Assembly: GCF_001678665.1 (NCBI RefSeq) | Contig: NZ_LZRP01000001.1 | Span: 620,001 to 684,000, forward strand | Source: Erythrobacter sp. QSSC1-22B | GTDB taxonomy: Bacteria > Pseudomonadota > Alphaproteobacteria > Sphingomonadales > Sphingomonadaceae | Length of the DNA: 64,000 nucleotides | Direction of reading: 5' to 3' | In this document: positions 5,786 through 15,169 of the stretch, in pieces | How the letters are laid out: every line of letters begins with the position of its first letter | How positions within the stretch are numbered: position 1 is the first letter of the stretch | Notes under the pieces: generated by a model | What the model saw: only the letters and a program-made list of their open reading frames with translations | The model's database searches: none | What the model was told of the DNA's origin: nothing | Program-made: the position numbers and the translations under genes

Positions 5786-6787
5786 TCAGGCGGCGAGCAG
5801 TTCGGCCGCGCGCGGCCCGTCTTGCAGGAGCGCAAGCAAGCCACGCTCTTCGCGACTCAGCCATTTGGTGCTCCGCGGCAAGCTCAGGTTCGCGCGCCAC
5901 TCCACCTGCTTGCCGATCAAATCGATGACTGCGGGGTGGACGTAGCTTTTGCGCGTCACTGCCGGAGTGTTGCCGAGATGCGCGGCAACTTCCTCCAGCA
6001 CGGCCTTGATGGTCAGGACCTCCTCGCTGCCAGCCAGCAGGCTGAAAGCGAGCACGCTGGCATGCCAGGTGCGGAAATTCTTGGCAGTGAAATCCTCACC
6101 CATCGTCTCGCGCAGATAGGTGTTGACGTCGGAAGACCCGACCGGGTGATGATCGCCCTCGTCGTCGATATATTGAAAGACGTGCTGCCCGGGCAGATCC
6201 TGCATCTTGCGGACAACCCGTGCCAGACTGCTGTCGGTCACCGTCATCTCGCGCAGCTTCCCGCCCTTGCCCTTGAACCGCAGCCGCAGCGTATGGCCGG
6301 TGACCTCGGCATGACGCTGGCGCAAGGTCGTCGCTCCGTAGCTCTTGTTGCGCGCCGCGTATCCCTCGTTGCCGATCCGCACCGCTCCCAGATCGAGCAG
6401 CCGCACCACGCTTGCCACAGCGCGCTCGCGGGTCAGCGTGCGAGTGCGCAGGTCCTCCTCCACCCGGCGGCGAACGAGCGGGAGCAGATTGCCGAAGGTG
6501 ATGCAGCCGTCGTATTTCTCGCTCTCCTGCCGGGCGCGAAAATCCGGGTGGTAGCGATATTGCTTACGACCCTTGGCATCATAACCGGTGGCGAGGATGT
6601 GGCCGTTGGGCGCCGGGCAGAACCATGCATCGATATAGGCCGGTGGCAGCGCTATCGCGTTCAGGCGCCGCTTTTCCGGGCGGTCGGCAATCAACCTGGC
6701 TTCGGGATCGTAATAGGCCCAGCCGCGCCCCGCGCGCTTGCGGCTAATCCCGGGGAGATCGTCGTCGACATAGATGAGCTTCGTCAT
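5786..6787 (-). CDS. DNA topoisomerase IB
   Basis: Poxvirus-like type IB topoisomerase (333 residues) that nicks one strand through a 3'-phosphotyrosine and relaxes supercoils. The N-terminal domain opens with YVDDDLPGISRKRAGRGW. Catalytic elements are RIGNEGY (first Arg), the KGKGGK lysine loop, NFRTWHAS (second Arg) and LGNTPAVTRKSYVHP with the nucleophile Tyr. Asn occupies the place of the His of vaccinia enzyme, as known for other bacterial members. The start ATG at 6787 gives the usual length; an extension to 6883 would run over the divergent gene's leader. It is divergent from the yghU-like gene with a 95-base gap. It is an accessory relaxing enzyme beside the essential topA found later in the window. 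Confidence 0.93.
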   Translation of the reverse strand: MTKLIYVDDDLPGISRKRAGRGWAYYDPEARLIADRPEKRRLNAIALPPAYIDAWFCPAPNGHILATGYDAKGRKQYRYHPDFRARQESEKYDGCITFGNLLPLVRRRVEEDLRTRTLTRERAVASVVRLLDLGAVRIGNEGYAARNKSYGATTLRQRHAEVTGHTLRLRFKGKGGKLREMTVTDSSLARVVRKMQDLPGQHVFQYIDDEGDHHPVGSSDVNTYLRETMGEDFTAKNFRTWHASVLAFSLLAGSEEVLTIKAVLEEVAAHLGNTPAVTRKSYVHPAVIDLIGKQVEWRANLSLPRSTKWLSREERGLLALLQDGPRAAELLAA

Positions 6788-6882
6788 GGTGAAGGCCAAA
6801 CCGCCCGACGGCGATCGGGTTCCGCTTGCCTGCCGCTCCTGCGCGCCCCACCTACCGCCGCACACAAGCCAGGAGACAAGCA

Positions 6883-7734
6883 TTGCCCGACGCCACCTAC
6901 ACTCCGCCCGAAATCTGGTCGCACGATGCCGAGAATGGCGGCAAGTTCGCCAGCATCAACCGGCCGACCTCGGGTGCGCGCGAGGAAAAAGAGCTTCCGC
7001 TCGGCCAGCACGATTTCCAGCTCTATTCGCTGGCGACACCCAATGGGGTGAAGGCGACGATCATGCTCGAGGAACTGATCGAGGCAGGGCATTCGGGCGC
7101 CGAATACGACGCCTGGACGATCGATATCGGCGACGGCGCGCAGTTCCGTTCGGGCTTCGTCGATCTCAATCCCAATTCCAAGATCCCCACGCTGCTCGAC
7201 CGCAGCGGTCCGCAACCGGTCCGGGTGTTCGAGAGCGGCGCGATCCTGATGCATTTGGCCGAGAAATTCGGCGCTTTCCTGCCCACCGATCATACCCGCG
7301 CAGAGGTATTGAGCTGGCTGTTCTGGCAGGTCGGCAGCGCCCCCTTCATCGGTGGTGGCTTCGGTCATTTCTATGCCTATGCGCCGGAGAAATTCGAATA
7401 TCCGATCAATCGCTATGCCATGGAAACCAAGCGCCTGTTCGACGTCGCGGACAAGAGGCTGGCGCAATCTCGGTATCTGGGCGGCGAGGACTACACCGTC
7501 GCCGATATCGCGGCCTTCCCCTGGATCGCCCCTTTCGTCTTCGGTGGAATTTACGGCGAAGCGCGCAAATTCCTGTCGATTCACGAATACGAGCATGTCG
7601 AGCGCTGGGTGAAAGCCATCGCCGAACGCCCCGCTGTCAAGCGCGGCAGGATCGTCAACAAGACCTGGGGCGAAGAAGACGAGCAATTGCGCGAGCGCCA
7701 TTCGGCCAAGGATTTCGAGGGCAAGGCGCTCTAG
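6883..7734 (+). CDS. yghU: Glutathione S-transferase, YghU-type
   Basis: Nu-class glutathione transferase/disulfide-bond oxidoreductase of 283 residues, close to E. coli YghU in length. Typical features are the N-terminal extension PPEIWSHDAENGGKF, the thioredoxin-like domain from about residue 45 (FQLYSLATPNGVKATIMLEEL), the turn NPNSKIPTLLDRSG with cis-Pro, and the helical C-terminal domain with GGEDYTVADIAAFPW. The start is read as TTG at 6883 because AGGAGA lies at 6871-6876 six bases upstream; the ATG at 6826 has no such site and adds a non-family sequence. A 10-bp inverted repeat follows the stop. The role is probably reduction of peroxides or disulfides with two glutathiones (family knowledge). 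Confidence 0.92.
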   Translation: MPDATYTPPEIWSHDAENGGKFASINRPTSGAREEKELPLGQHDFQLYSLATPNGVKATIMLEELIEAGHSGAEYDAWTIDIGDGAQFRSGFVDLNPNSKIPTLLDRSGPQPVRVFESGAILMHLAEKFGAFLPTDHTRAEVLSWLFWQVGSAPFIGGGFGHFYAYAPEKFEYPINRYAMETKRLFDVADKRLAQSRYLGGEDYTVADIAAFPWIAPFVFGGIYGEARKFLSIHEYEHVERWVKAIAERPAVKRGRIVNKTWGEEDEQLRERHSAKDFEGKAL

Positions 7735-7746
7735 CGCGAACTGGCC

Positions 7747-7785
7747 GGGAGAGCGGACGCTACGCAATGTCGCGCCCGCTCTCCC
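7747..7785 (+). terminator. Inverted repeat downstream of yghU
   Basis: Perfect 10-bp inverted repeat: GGGAGAGCGG at 7747-7756 pairs with CCGCTCTCCC at 7776-7785, with a 19-base loop. It starts 12 bases after the yghU stop and lies before the tRNA. There is no clean T-run after the stem, so termination efficiency is uncertain; it may instead protect the mRNA 3' end. Confidence 0.5.
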
Positions 7786-7858
7786 CGTTCATTCAGGCAC
7801 GCGCCGGTCGACAGCCCTTTTCATCGCCGCGCAAGCCGTTATATGGGCGCGTTCTTGC

Positions 7859-7933
7859 TGGGGTGTAGCCAAGTGGTAAGGCACCGGTTTTTGGTATCGG
7901 CATTCGCAGGTTCGATCCCTGCCACCCCAGCCA
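7859..7933 (+). tRNA. tRNA-Gln (anticodon TTG)
   Basis: Complete cloverleaf with encoded CCA. Acceptor arm TGGGGTG (7859-7865) pairs with CACCCCA (7923-7929); the discriminator base is G and CCA occupies 7931-7933. The D-loop segment is AAGTGGTAAGG. The anticodon stem CCGGT/ATCGG carries the loop TTTTGGT with anticodon TTG (reads CAA, and CAG by wobble). The T-arm contains GGTTCGATCC. It is a single tRNA on the + strand, about 125 bases after yghU. Confidence 0.96.
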
Positions 7934-8313
7934 ACACCCCCAACAAGTCATTGAAATTGAACTGAGTCCTATTGTCGGCGACCGGCTTTTCGCCCAGTCA
8001 CTGTACCGACGAGCTGTATCACAGCCGAGGGGAACGGAAGGATCTTTCAGAGACTTCAATCCCGAACACCAGGCGTCCCGGCGCGATTTACCGGTTTCGC
8101 CGGTCGCGTTGTTTGCCAGACGGCAACCGTTTGCGGCCTAGCGTATGCGTGTAGCGACGAGGTCGACAAATCCCCGCGACCCATGACTGCTCCTAGTGAA
8201 GCAGTCTTCGATCAGAACGGGGCAATTTTGGGGATCCCTTTTAGCACCATGATTTCAGAACCTATTCTTCATGGCTGCGACCAGCTTGGTACCTCCGAGC
8301 CACTTATCAGCGG
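7934..8313. other. Gene-poor stretch downstream of tRNA-Gln
   Basis: No convincing coding frame is visible on either strand. The only structure seen is a 7-bp perfect inverted repeat, GACTGCT (8185-8191) with AGCAGTC (8200-8206) around an 8-base loop, without a T-run. Base composition is somewhat more even than that of the flanking genes. No integrase fragment and no duplicated tRNA 3' end was found, so there is no evidence of a tRNA-inserted island. Confidence 0.5.
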
Positions 8314-8739
8314 TTAGCCGTTTGGCCCGATCGACCCGTCGTTGAGTATCCAGATCCCTGCGATGAGCGCCAGTCCACCAACAATTATCGACCAGCTCAT
8401 CCAGCGAATATTTGGTGTTCGAGGCCTGTCGATCTCGTGGGTGGAAAGCCGAGAGAAGCTCTGGGCGGCTCTTCTTTGTGCGGTAAAAGCGACCGTCATG
8501 CCCAGCACGATAAACAGCGATGCGATCGCTTGCGCGAGCCAGGGCGGCTGGAATTCGCCGAACACGACGTGAAAGGCGATCCCGACGCCGATCGCTGCAA
8601 AAGCGGTGCGCAACCAGCCCGCGAAGGTACGTTCCGTAGCCTGGATCGTGCGGTCCTCGGCCAGATCTGTGCGAAACTCGGCCCATTCCGTGTTCTTCTC
8701 GGAATCGCTTTGATCGTCGGGATTGTCATCTTGCGCCAT
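8314..8739 (-). CDS. DUF202 (YidH-family) inner-membrane protein
   Basis: Small membrane protein of 141 residues. After an acidic, hydrophilic N-terminus (about 25 residues, rich in Asp, Glu and Ser) comes the DUF202 signature DLAEDRTIQATERTFAGWLR, followed by three predicted hydrophobic segments: TAFAAIGVGIAFHVVFG, WLAQAIASLFIVLGMTVAF and WMSWSIIVGGLALIAGIWI. No enzymatic residues are known for the family and its function is undetermined. A 12-bp palindrome sits 29-40 bases upstream of the ATG and could be an operator. The gene faces the same way as the ligase operon upstream of it and could be its distal member, though a 100-base gap separates them. Confidence 0.82.
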   Translation of the reverse strand: MAQDDNPDDQSDSEKNTEWAEFRTDLAEDRTIQATERTFAGWLRTAFAAIGVGIAFHVVFGEFQPPWLAQAIASLFIVLGMTVAFTAQRRAAQSFSRLSTHEIDRPRTPNIRWMSWSIIVGGLALIAGIWILNDGSIGPNG

Positions 8740-8767
8740 TCTCTCGCGTTACTCTCGCCTCCGCTGA

Positions 8768-8779
8768 GCGCAATTGCGC
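8768..8779. promoter_or_regulatory. 12-bp perfect palindrome upstream of the DUF202 gene
   Basis: The sequence GCGCAATTGCGC is its own reverse complement and lies 29-40 bases before the DUF202 start, in the 100-base gap after the ligase gene. The position fits a repressor or activator half-site pair. No matching regulator is identifiable in the window. Confidence 0.3.
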
Positions 8780-8839
8780 AACGTTATATTCTGCCTGATC
8801 GCAAAGGATGCAGGCCAAAAGGGTTGGCAGGACGCGGCC

Positions 8840-9958
8840 TTAGATCACCGCCAGCTGGCGGTTGGTAAGTGTGCCACCATATTGCCGCTGCAACCGGACC
8901 TTGCGCTCGAGATCGTCCAGGATCGCACCGCTGAAATCGACCCCGCTCAGATCCTCCATGAAATTAAGGCCGCCTGGAGTGTCGACATTGACCTCCATCA
9001 TCTTGTCGCCCGCTATGTCGAGCCCGGTCAGATACATGCCATCGTCGATCAGTTTGGGACCGACTATTTCCGCGATCCGCAACGCGACCTCGTCGGGTTC
9101 CGCCATCTCCACACCTCCACCGGCGGAGATATTGGAGCGATGATCCTCGGTCTGGCTGAACCGGTGGATACATGCGTAGGTATCGGCCACCTTGAGCGGG
9201 CGGCCATTGAGGGTAATCATCCGCAGATCGCCCTTCTTGGCGGCGGGCAGATATTCCTGAACGATGGCGTAGCCATCGCGGATCACCGCCTCGACGATCT
9301 GATTGAGGTTCTGGCGATTGCCCTCATCGATCAGGAACACGCCCTGTCCGCCTGAACCTTGCAAGGGTTTGATCACGCCCATGCCACCGTGCGCATCGAG
9401 GAAGCGGCTGATCTCATCGGGTTCGCGCGTGATGCTGGTCGCGGGCCGGACCGTCTCGGGAAAGCCCTGGAAATAGGTCTTGTTGACCGCATCGGTCAGT
9501 TGGTTGGGATCGTTCAAGACGATCGTACTGTCCAAGGACGCGAGCTGCGCGAACAGCAGACCGGAGGACGGAGCCCAGTTGCGTGTGGTCAATTCCGTCG
9601 CCGGGTCGCTACGCAACATGAGGATGTCGTATTCCGACAAGTTGATGCGCGCCCGCTCCATGCCCGAATCCTGGAGATGGGCAAGATAGGTGGTGTCGTC
9701 CTTGAACTCGGCGATCTTGCTCACCGTCGCCATCGCGCAGATGCCGTCCTGCCAGTCGTAGATAAAGTCGCCAAGCCCGATCAACGCGACTTCGTGCCCC
9801 CGCGCCACGGCTTTGCGGGCGAGCCGAATGGTGGTGTAATTATCTTGCTCTGTGGCAACCGAGTTGACCACGAAGGCGATCTTGATGGCTCCGTTTCCGG
9901 CCTCGCCTCGCGGCTTGGACTTGGGTTTGCTCTTTTTCTTGTTCTTGACGTCGGTCAT
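8840..9958 (-). CDS. GshB/RimK-like ATP-grasp ligase
   Basis: ATP-grasp enzyme of 372 residues related to prokaryotic glutathione synthetase, a family that joins a carboxylate to an amine through an acyl-phosphate. After a Lys-rich start come a Rossmann-like N-domain (KIAFVVNSVATEQDNYTT), the glycine-rich ATP loop VIKPLQGSGGQGVFLI, an adenine-binding strand VQEYLPAAKKGDLRMI and the Mg-binding EVNVDTPGGLNF. The ATG at 9958 overlaps the TGA of the DUF1704 gene (ATGA), so the two are translationally coupled. It is last of three genes with an N-formylglutamate amidohydrolase-like protein and a metallopeptidase. It is unlikely to be the housekeeping gshB given this context (inference). The amine and carboxylate substrates are unknown. 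Confidence 0.85.
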   Translation of the reverse strand: MTDVKNKKKSKPKSKPRGEAGNGAIKIAFVVNSVATEQDNYTTIRLARKAVARGHEVALIGLGDFIYDWQDGICAMATVSKIAEFKDDTTYLAHLQDSGMERARINLSEYDILMLRSDPATELTTRNWAPSSGLLFAQLASLDSTIVLNDPNQLTDAVNKTYFQGFPETVRPATSITREPDEISRFLDAHGGMGVIKPLQGSGGQGVFLIDEGNRQNLNQIVEAVIRDGYAIVQEYLPAAKKGDLRMITLNGRPLKVADTYACIHRFSQTEDHRSNISAGGGVEMAEPDEVALRIAEIVGPKLIDDGMYLTGLDIAGDKMMEVNVDTPGGLNFMEDLSGVDFSGAILDDLERKVRLQRQYGGTLTNRQLAVI

Positions 9959-11169
9959 GATGGAGCGCGTTCCTGATAGAATTGCGAAAGGGGTACCTGG
10001 CGAGCCTTGGCTAGCCGGCCCATTGCAGATGGGTCGTCGAGATAGGGCGGCAGGATTTCGGGCTGATGCAAGATGCCGTCGTCGATCAGGGTTTCCAGGC
10101 TGTGCAGATGCTTGAGCGCGAACTTGCCCAGAAAGAGAATCTCGAATGCCCCACCGCCGCGCAGGTAGGCCAGCAGCTCCGCCAACCCCTTGAGATAGAG
10201 CGCATCCTTGGTCAGCCCGCCGCCTCGCTTGGCGCGCAATGCGGTATTGAACGCCGTTTTGGAGTCGATGCGACACTCATCGACGAGGCAGGCATATATT
10301 TCCGGCCCCGCTCGCTCTTCGACCGCCATATGAGCCGCGACCACCCGTGCGGCCAGAGTCCGCAATCGCTGCGCCGGCAGATAGCCGGCCAGATATTCGG
10401 CCAGCACCGCCACGCCTTCCTGAAGTTCGTCGTAATCGGCAAGACCACCGGCCAGAGTGTGCAATGGCTGACGCAGACCATTGTGCCGGGTCACCGCATG
10501 GGTGCCGATCTCGTGCTGTATCAGGGGGTCGACCCGCGAACGCGAGGTGCGAAAATCATGGGCGACATGAAAATCGCCCTGCGAGACGTAAAGCGATGTC
10601 CCCGGGGTGGGATCAACGACCACCTCGCATTGAAAGTCCGGGTGACGTTTGCGATACTTCGCCACCTCAATGCGCGCGGCCTCGCAGATTTCAGCGGCAC
10701 CGACATCATCCGGATCGGGGGCGACCACCGGAACCGCTTCAAGAAGGTCGCGTGCGTCCTGCAGTAGCTGTTCGCTGACGTGACCGAAAAGGTCGATGCT
10801 CGCCAGGATGAAGCCGGCTTTTCCCCGCATCCGCACCAGTTCGATCTGCTGGTCGATCTCGCGCTGCTTTTCCAGCATCAAGGCTTGCAGCAGATGGTTC
10901 TCTATCTCGCGAACCGGCAGGTCGAACAGTTCGCTGCGAAGGACCGGGGCATCGTTCTCCAGACCCTCGCTGAAGCGACTGTCGGGCATGGAGCGATAGT
11001 TGGAATCGCGAAAGCCCTCCCAGATTTCGGTGATGTTGACTGGCGTGAGCCGCGTCAGCCAGTCGACCTTTTCGTCCATCCTCGCGAGCGCTCGGTCGAC
11101 TTCGAGAGCTGCGGAACACAGGCGGTGGGTGGGGGCCGGCTGCGTGTCGGCTTCTCGCGTTCCCATCAT
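9955..11169 (-). CDS. DUF1704/QEGLA-motif putative metallo-carboxypeptidase (MATCAP-related)
   Basis: Protein of 404 residues belonging to DUF1704 (TIGR02421, 'QEGLA motif'). The zinc-peptidase-like motif HEIGTH is at about 219-224 in DPLIQHEIGTHAVT, and the eponymous motif reads QEGVA at about 250-254 in DELQEGVAVLAEYLAG; its Glu is a likely third metal ligand. Eukaryotic members (MATCAP/TMCP) are tubulin C-terminal tyrosine carboxypeptidases; bacterial members have no established substrate. No signal peptide is visible. ATG 11169 overlaps the TGA of the amidohydrolase-like gene (ATGA), and its own stop overlaps the ligase start the same way. The context suggests it trims what the ATP-grasp partner builds (inference). 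Confidence 0.85.
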   Translation of the reverse strand: MMGTREADTQPAPTHRLCSAALEVDRALARMDEKVDWLTRLTPVNITEIWEGFRDSNYRSMPDSRFSEGLENDAPVLRSELFDLPVREIENHLLQALMLEKQREIDQQIELVRMRGKAGFILASIDLFGHVSEQLLQDARDLLEAVPVVAPDPDDVGAAEICEAARIEVAKYRKRHPDFQCEVVVDPTPGTSLYVSQGDFHVAHDFRTSRSRVDPLIQHEIGTHAVTRHNGLRQPLHTLAGGLADYDELQEGVAVLAEYLAGYLPAQRLRTLAARVVAAHMAVEERAGPEIYACLVDECRIDSKTAFNTALRAKRGGGLTKDALYLKGLAELLAYLRGGGAFEILFLGKFALKHLHSLETLIDDGILHQPEILPPYLDDPSAMGRLAKARQVPLSQFYQERAPS

Positions 11170-12038
11170 CCTTGCCCCCGCGACGCTGCCAGCCATTTCC
11201 GCGCATTCGCCAGCCCGGCGAGAAATCCTTCGCGCAGGTCCTGCAGCGCCAAAATGTCTGCATGGTGCCCCCACTCATCCATGAATATCTTCTTGTATTC
11301 CAGAGTGATGACGCAGGCAGCGTCGCCGTAGGTCGTGTGCAGCCATTCGGGGAAGTGACCCCCATCTTCCCAGCGCACGTTCACCCGCACATCGGGCGAT
11401 TGCCCCCGCACCGGACGCGAGCGCAGTCCTTGCGCAAATTCCTCGAGGAGGTCGCCATATATGGCCTCGTTCAGCGTGGTGGCGCCAAGGTCGATGTCCG
11501 GGCTCTCGGCCTGCGGATCCGCCGCACCATCCGCCCCGTTGCGACGGTGGTTGTAGCTGTGGATGTCCAGAACCAGGATCTGACCATGTTCGGCGATCAT
11601 CGCTTCCACCCGCTCAGCCATCAGGGCGTAGAACCGGCGATGAAGATCGAGAGAAGTCTCGATCTCATCTCGGGGCAGATCGGGGCTCCATATCCTGAGC
11701 CCCCAAGTGTCCTCGGGATCGACTGTCACTGCCTTTCTGGCAGGGCGATTGAGATCGAATTCGAAGCGTGAGCGATTGGCTCGAACGATCGTGTCCCCGG
11801 ACGGAAGGAAGAAGTCGGTGAGCGGATCTTCTTCACGAAGCCGCGCCTGATCTTCGATCTCCAGCCATGGGCGCAGAGAATTGCGAATGGTGTGGCCCGC
11901 GTGAATGGCCGTGACCATGACCGGGCCGGGCTGAACGACCGTATCCCATGGCTCGGTGATTGCGGCTGGCGAGTCCGGATGATCGACGGACGCGTGGCCA
12001 TTCTCAAGGGTCGTTCGGTTCTCAAGGCTTTGCTGCAT
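11166..12038 (-). CDS. N-formylglutamate amidohydrolase-like protein
   Basis: Zinc amidohydrolase-like protein of 290 residues from the N-formylglutamate amidohydrolase (HutG/FGase) family. Visible motifs are VMVTAIHAGHTIRN near residue 42, a conserved DLHRRFYALM, ILVLDIHSYNHRR (likely metal-binding Asp/His) and the C-terminal VITLEYKKIFMDEWG. No other histidine-utilisation gene is in the window, so a histidine-degradation role is not supported by context. It is first gene of a three-gene set in which each stop overlaps the next start by four bases. A 357-base leader with no clear gene precedes it. In this setting it may hydrolyse an amide or aminoacyl-glutamate bond (inference). Confidence 0.82.
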   Translation of the reverse strand: MQQSLENRTTLENGHASVDHPDSPAAITEPWDTVVQPGPVMVTAIHAGHTIRNSLRPWLEIEDQARLREEDPLTDFFLPSGDTIVRANRSRFEFDLNRPARKAVTVDPEDTWGLRIWSPDLPRDEIETSLDLHRRFYALMAERVEAMIAEHGQILVLDIHSYNHRRNGADGAADPQAESPDIDLGATTLNEAIYGDLLEEFAQGLRSRPVRGQSPDVRVNVRWEDGGHFPEWLHTTYGDAACVITLEYKKIFMDEWGHHADILALQDLREGFLAGLANARKWLAASRGQG

Positions 12039-12395
12039 GGAGTGCTAACGAGGTAGGAGCGGTGCCGTTCCACCAGATGCGGAGCGGACCTGCCAGCTTT
12101 CCGGGGTCGGACCTCGCGATCGACATTCAGCCATGCAGACCATGGCGGGCAGGAGAAACAGCCAACAAGAAGAAGGCCTTGCACCGGCGGCGGCGGCGGC
12201 GAACAGCTTGGGCTCTTCCCCGGTTTCCGGCGATCAGCGCGAAGAAGCACATCCGGAGTGCGCTGCGCGCCTGCCGTCACCGAACACAGGAATGGGGCTG
12301 GCGGTGTCGGCGATTTCGGCCTCCACCTGTTCCCCAAACACGGTGACCCGCATTCCGCCCGCGACTCTCACGATGCGATAAGGCGAGCCATCACA
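12039..12395. other. Leader stretch between the small topA-coupled gene and the amidohydrolase operon
   Basis: No recognised gene lies here. It contains a run of CGG triplets (about 12186-12201) and a purine-rich patch (AACAAGAAGAAGG). A possible 39-codon minus-strand frame runs from ATG 12353 to a stop at 12234 but has no recognisable relatives and no clear ribosome site. The region should hold the promoter of the amidohydrolase/DUF1704/ligase operon on the minus strand, but no confident -35/-10 pair was seen. Confidence 0.45.
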
Positions 12396-12577
12396 TCACC
12401 GCTTTTTCAGTATCTCGATCCCGTTTTTCTTCGCGAAGTCCCGGGTCGATTCCTCGCTGCGGCCCAGCGCTTTCGCGATTTCGCGCAGGCCCTTGCCCTT
12501 GGCGGCAAGCGTGCGCAGCATGCCCGCCTCGTCGGCGCGCCAGGGTTGCTTGTGGCGTTCGAAATGTTCCTTCGCCA

Positions 12578-12578
<1 letters not shown>
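12396..12578 (-). CDS. Small basic protein translationally coupled to topA (putative helix-turn-helix)
   Basis: Protein of 60 residues, basic and probably all-helical. The segment AAKGKGLREIAKALGRSEES reads like a helix-turn-helix (REIAKALGRSEESTRDFAKK), of the kind in Myb/SANT-like or sigma-70 region-4-like small DNA-binding proteins. Its ATG overlaps the topA stop by one base (TGATG at 12580-12576), so it is almost certainly translated from the topA message. Function is unknown; the coupling suggests a nucleoid or DNA-topology role (inference). Confidence that the frame is real rests on the coupling, the composition and the helix-turn-helix pattern. Confidence 0.6.

Positions 12579-15169
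<2,591 letters not shown>

Follow-up and report, generated by a model that had tools for sequence, protein, structure and literature searches.

A recurrent bacterial gene trio encoding a GshB-like ATP-grasp ligase, a relative of the MATCAP tubulin carboxypeptidases and an N-formylglutamate amidohydrolase-family enzyme

Animal tubulin tails are written and erased by ATP-grasp ligases of the TTL/TTLL type, by deglutamylases with carboxypeptidase A fold (M14) and by the MATCAP/TMCP enzymes. The alpha-L-glutamate ligase RimK also modifies a protein tail. The families of N-formylglutamate amidohydrolase (FGase), AstE and AspA have small N-acyl amino acids as substrates, N-acylated glutamate or aspartate in the case of these three enzymes. 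Iyer and colleagues reportedly predicted neighborhoods of ATP-grasp enzymes and peptidases in 2009, the common concept being an amidoligase and peptidases encoded in one operon. In this study, we analyzed a stretch of 64,000 nucleotides from Erythrobacter sp. QSSC1-22B (contig NZ_LZRP01000001.1, positions 620,001 to 684,000; hereafter the window), in which genes for a GshB/RimK-like ATP-grasp ligase, a MATCAP (DUF1704) zinc carboxypeptidase-like protein and an FGase-family amidohydrolase lie side by side (Table 1). The linkage of this trio is strong. We give an even chance to the reading that it is a co-inherited, patchily distributed module making and unmaking amide bonds on one common substrate, most probably a small acidic (Glu- or Asp-containing) peptide or N-acyl amino acid and not glutathione itself. 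Observed are the fusions, the folds, the conservation of active-site residues, the linkage and the pattern of FGase replacement, and what we infer is the class of substrate, the order of steps and the regulation of the module.

With home-made profiles, 82 wide loci and the window were examined, of which 79 remained after four repeats had been dropped, none of them with an identical MATCAP. They comprised 65 partner-type loci and 14 loci of a second MATCAP clade. A same-strand ligase gene was present nearby at 62/65 partner-type loci (the exceptions were L084, L088 and the decayed L071) and an FGase gene at 46/65. Neither partner was found nearby at any of the 14 loci of the second clade (clade B, with HEGLVH and similar motifs); at one of these, L078, a more divergent RimK-like gene in opposite orientation stayed under the threshold used. 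Neighbors of clade B showed local synteny only. Many loci are close kin, and linkage p-values overstate their independence. The module occurs in Proteobacteria, Bacteroidota and Gemmatimonadota. Start-stop overlaps of 4 bp were observed at 29 of the 56 MATCAP-ligase junctions and 28 of the 42 FGase-MATCAP junctions examined (window counted in both). Because these overlaps are frequent and the neighborhood recurs across phyla, the arrangement is not due to chance. An initial annotation of the window had proposed that the three genes belong to one system; the conservation of both partners far beyond close relatives is in line with this, and the linkage across phyla supports the trio as a probable functional module.

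PF08014 was present in 29/299 genomes of the same phylum, in 16/296 Bacteroidota-phylum and in 7/200 Gemmatimonadota-phylum genomes (counts that include the centre genome each, phyla being judged from the named centre loci), and the gene is therefore accessory. Among 249 genomes of the window's family, MATCAP was detected in 19 and the trio-type ligase in 18 (42-100% identity, E below 1e-90); ligase and intact MATCAP share the same 18 genomes, and the next ligase-like match among the matches listed had an E-value of 9e-34. All three genes are fragmentary in the 19th genome (G307, L071), where the module decays as a whole. No MATCAP was present in the four same-genus genomes listed. Gene orders vary and include FGase-MATCAP-ligase, ligase-FGase-MATCAP and two ligases around an FGase-MATCAP pair. 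At two loci (L105 and L156), one MATCAP gene is followed by two tandem trio-type ligase genes. Sinorhizobium meliloti 1021 carries the trio in order on pSymB (NC_003078, about 1122942-1126743), and in S. meliloti RCAM1750 it is annotated as HB773_22935, HB773_22930 and HB773_22925. A conserved precursor peptide was sought and none was found among the small genes beside the loci, which were read in part, 16 of the loci being gone through again for open reading frames (ORFs) of at least 120 aa; an acidic protein of 94-110 aa encoded upstream of MATCAP had matches at six Algoriphagus loci only. In titles and the beginnings of abstracts of the open-licence literature, no description of the trio was found, and one may be in print elsewhere.

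In the window, the order of transcription on the minus strand is FGase, MATCAP and ligase, with start codons ATG at 11169 for MATCAP and ATG at 9958 for the ligase. Longer mechanically called ORFs (MATCAP from 11274; ligase from a GTG at 10276) were rejected, their starts falling within the preceding gene. The initial annotation had described two ATGA overlaps, and both junctions were confirmed; its statement that the proteins are made in fixed ratio exceeds the data, as the overlaps suggest translational coupling and no more. A promoter scan of 8500-12700 returned two sites at 0.9 expected by chance, and therefore no promoter is claimed for the trio.

Table 1. Genes, junctions and motifs of the trio in the window
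Feature	Position	Strand	Evidence
Zinc amidohydrolase of the FGase family (PF05013), 290 aa, leading gene of the operon	11166..12038	-	Pfam E 4.8e-18
MATCAP/DUF1704 zinc carboxypeptidase-like protein, 404 aa	9955..11169	-	PF08014 E 3.9e-70
GshB/RimK-like ATP-grasp ligase, 372 aa	8840..9958	-	PF02955 E 1.7e-42
FGase-MATCAP stop/start overlap ATGA	11166..11169	-	sequence
MATCAP-ligase stop/start overlap ATGA	9955..9958	-	sequence
MATCAP HEIGTH zinc-binding/catalytic motif	10498..10515	-	sequence and alignment
MATCAP QEG motif, presumed third zinc ligand E251	10414..10422	-	sequence and alignment

The ligase carries an ATP-grasp domain (PF02955, 145.3 bits at a cut-off of 23; RimK PF08443, E 2.7e-12), and its best match in the PDB was E. 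coli GshB (1gsa, E 1.4e-32), followed by RimK. D314, E322 and N324, which align to the D..E.N stretch of E. coli GshB and which we take to be the ATP-grasp metal site, were present in 66/66 ligases, window counted. The protein stays below the cut-offs of GshB TIGR01380 (176-178 vs. 299.05 bits) and of glutathione synthase PRK05246 (189.2 vs. 272) and narrowly misses that of the glutathione synthetase subfamily PRK12458 (NF009110; 388.2 vs. 408). Elsewhere, the host genome encodes a GshB that passes TIGR01380 with 359.4 bits, as well as a GshA-type enzyme (PF04107, 311.6 bits); this separate GshB disposes of the concern that the ligase might be the sole glutathione synthetase of the organism.

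The MATCAP protein of the window scored 237.1 bits on PF08014 (gathering cut-off 27) and contains the zinc site HExxxH with the downstream Glu (HEIGTH and QEG), the retention of which had been stated in the initial annotation and is confirmed. H219, E220, T223 and H224 as well as Q250, E251 and G252 were invariant in 22/22 alignment rows. The structural modelling suggested there yielded an AlphaFold2 model (predicted local distance difference test score 89.7) that has the human MATCAP fold, with human MATCAP 7z6s/7z5g as best PDB matches (Foldseek E 2.5e-8, best chain), template modelling scores on the target of 0.62-0.71 across five human chains and about 18% identity. HEIGTH is identical in human KIAA0895L, which profiles of partner-type MATCAPs retrieved at 1.5e-13. 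Judged by MATCAP, the closest named relatives were two unclassified alphaproteobacterial metagenome-assembled genomes, followed by Allopontixanthobacter sediminis. On the curated QEGLA family TIGR02421 (cut-off 338.65), the window protein remained below with 266.2, and a fused protein (L087) passed with 406.3. A MATCAP-like stretch was also noted in Pseudomonas phage Y1 (OQ572403.1, 63503-64030; 34.5% identity, E 1e-7).

The FGase of the window matched PF05013 with 66.5 bits (gathering cut-off 28.9) and lies far below the cut-off of the HutG equivalog TIGR02017 (20.8 vs. 278.75); H46, E69, E70, D71, D158, H160 and E247 were invariant in 45/45 rows, window counted. FGase-MATCAP fusion polypeptides exist in some bacteria, and 36/45 MATCAPs outside the window's group bear a domain of FGase fold with an eroded zinc site, perhaps a docking or regulatory partner of the active FGase. 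A model of the trio FGase found nothing in 13 FGase-less genomes and had matches in 7/7 positive genomes. At 10/19 partner-type loci lacking an intact FGase, an AstE/AspA-type gene was present, vs. 0/46 loci with FGase; that of L088 was a seed of the search model, yet Pfam recognized it independently (126.6 vs. 25 bits). The AstE gene lies on the operon strand at L154 and L088, the only two operon-like cases; at seven Algoriphagus loci and at L152 it is found just past the ligase on the opposite strand. As a member of the Algoriphagus operon, the AspA/AstE gene was rejected, since it is convergent and not operonic, and it was retained as a replacement pattern only. In the upstream part of six Bacteroidota loci, a gene for an SDF-family dicarboxylate/amino-acid symporter, nearest to GltP, was found. 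At one locus (L099, 5311-6054), a membrane protein gene, metal transporter-like by eye, has a 4-bp overlap with the FGase start; it had no Pfam match and was found at this locus only.

Because of the AstE/AspA-type genes at FGase-less loci and the upstream symporter genes of six Bacteroidota loci, the genomic context points to something acidic as substrate, probably an N-acyl amino acid or small peptide rather than a protein. In the proposed mechanism, the GshB-like ligase would spend ATP and couple an amino acid to a carboxylate; the MATCAP zinc enzyme would then take the C-terminal residue off the ligase-type product, and the remaining bond between acyl group and acidic amino acid would be cut by a zinc amidohydrolase of the FGase type or, in other lineages, of the AstE/AspA type. 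FGase and MATCAP may act as one unit, since they are fused in some bacteria and since an eroded FGase-fold domain is found on many MATCAPs. An excerpt of PMC10499314 describes human TMCPs as deglutamylating enzymes.

Several observations weigh against a shared module with an acidic small substrate. A solitary trio-like ligase gene occurs on Ensifer adhaerens p1 (L167, 6001-7047) in a stretch with neither MATCAP nor FGase, and plasmid records matching the ligase (122, E to 1e-60) outnumber those matching MATCAP (110-116), which speaks against strict linkage. The AstE gene is on the opposite strand at 8/10 loci, which are one related group, L088 has no ligase nearby, and in the stretches fetched for 9/65 loci neither an intact FGase nor an AstE gene was present; L057, which is among these nine, retains a 36-residue FGase remnant only. 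The symporter is confined to one lineage and reaches 266.6 at a GltP cut-off of 638. In Vibrio sp. HDW18 (L164, 7125-9116), an FGase-MATCAP fusion has an eroded FGase site (H160 to Y) and no adjacent ligase. Finally, a mercaptopyruvate sulfurtransferase-like gene within the clusters of L145 and L148 (215.9 vs. cut-off 250 in L148) hints at thiol chemistry.

This last hint leads to glutathione or thiol metabolism, where the ligase would be a second glutathione synthase or the maker of an analogue and the two hydrolases would degrade the thiol peptide. E. coli GshB as the nearest solved structure would fit, as would the L142 ligase, which exceeds PRK05246 (293.5 vs. 272) and PRK12458 (466.8 vs. 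408), the second ligase of L105, also above PRK12458 (431.9), and in the window a gene at 6826-7734 (+) for a glutathione-dependent disulfide-bond oxidoreductase (NF008731, 472.9 vs. 325). However, this oxidoreductase gene occurs at no other fetched locus, the L142 ligase stays under TIGR01380 (245.8 vs. 299.05), and the host already has the GshA-type enzyme and the GshB described above, the latter with a TIGR01380 score far above that of the trio ligase. PF04107 was missing in 12/24 module-bearing Bacteroidota/Gemmatimonadota genomes (9/14 and 3/10; the counts cover PF04107, with PF04262-type GshA left out) vs. 7/15 Bacteroidota without MATCAP; this absence being similar with and without MATCAP, the module does not track PF04107. 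We consider a thiol role unlikely. Likewise doubtful is a salvage pathway, in which a peptide or acylated amino acid would be taken up and then broken down by the hydrolases, with the ligase merely storing or recycling the amino acid set free. It draws on the symporter beside six loci, an amino acid permease in L154 and a sugar ABC transporter adjoining an S. meliloti trio, but no transporter gene was noticed immediately next to the trio of the window (no systematic survey of transporters was made), and L105, L145, L146 and L156 have two ligases and no extra hydrolase.

A protein C-terminal tail, extended by the ligase and trimmed by MATCAP with FGase in parallel to tubulin tyrosination or glutamylation, would agree with the fold and the HEIGTH motif that the bacterial MATCAP and the human tubulin enzyme have in common, with RimK as next solved relative of the ligase and with the higher scores of the human fragment on partner-type group profiles (35-41 bits) than on that of the partnerless clade (22 bits). 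Yet the branch of human MATCAP is very long and the tree cannot place it with certainty, clustering of ORFs (60 aa or longer) from the 8-kb surroundings of 45 loci brought up no further widely conserved gene, and the established small N-acyl amino acid substrates of the FGase/AstE families argue against a protein; we judge such a tail improbable. Quite improbable, in our view, is that the trio is ancestral or parallel to the code of tubulin tails and, with the three enzyme folds that write and erase those tails joined in one bacterial operon, cycles C-terminal residues on a bacterial protein or ribosomal peptide under osmotic change. The tubulin-cycle parallel drawn in the initial annotation is one possibility among several.

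Expression data touch on the preferred reading, a module acting on a small acidic substrate. In an RNA-seq comparison of Photobacterium damselae at 1% vs. 3% NaCl, A0J47_RS17020 (GshB) was up 38.42-fold and A0J47_RS17025 (QEGLA) 27.51-fold, and in the excerpt of this paper the authors discuss the GshB gene only, as glutathione synthetase, among the top low-salt responses (PMC10308900). The ligase gene of Photobacterium sp. DA100 overlaps an FGase-MATCAP fusion gene, and since the two locus tags of P. damselae are adjacent, we infer that it shares this arrangement, a comparison made via the congener locus L165 and not its own locus, which also counts against the reading. The substrate, once found, would explain the low-salt response and may reveal a pre-tubulin role of MATCAP enzymes. 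The trio merits biochemical work. Bacterial relatives of animal tubulin carboxypeptidases hereby gain a defined set of partners and, with S. meliloti, a testable and genetically easy host.

Around the trio, a 60-aa ORF at 12396-12578 (-) lies upstream and starts at the topA stop (TGATG), with a weak helix-turn-helix match (PF13936, 22.8 vs. cut-off 27). A topoisomerase IB gene (PF01028) is located at 5786-6883 (-) and a tRNA gene at 7859-7930 (+), about 0.9 kb past the ligase end. The guanine-cytosine fraction in 1-kb steps is 0.575-0.604 at 7000-9999 and about 0.62-0.66 in most flanking steps. An island inserted at the tRNA gene is not claimed, as no direct repeat of the tRNA end was reported in 7800-13000.

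Compared with known systems, the trio ligase resembles GshB (TIGR01380) and RimK in its ATP-grasp domain and D..E.N residues, but falls under both equivalog cut-offs in a genome with a separate GshB. The FGase shares the PF05013 match with HutG, whose equivalog cut-off it misses; AstE/AspA-type genes are present at some FGase-less loci. In annotated genomes, the trio is at present called 'glutathione synthase', 'N-formylglutamate amidohydrolase' and 'flavohemoglobin expression-modulating protein'; the last name, in full 'flavohemoglobin expression-modulating QEGLA motif protein' (TIGR02421), is the one that these MATCAPs carry on annotated plasmids, although the window MATCAP lies below the cut-off of that family. 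With the tubulin carboxypeptidases MATCAP/TMCP (KIAA0895L, KIAA0895), the bacterial protein has the Pfam family PF08014, the fold and the HExxxH and EG motifs in common, and it differs from them by an identity of about 18% and by its operon with a ligase and an amidohydrolase.

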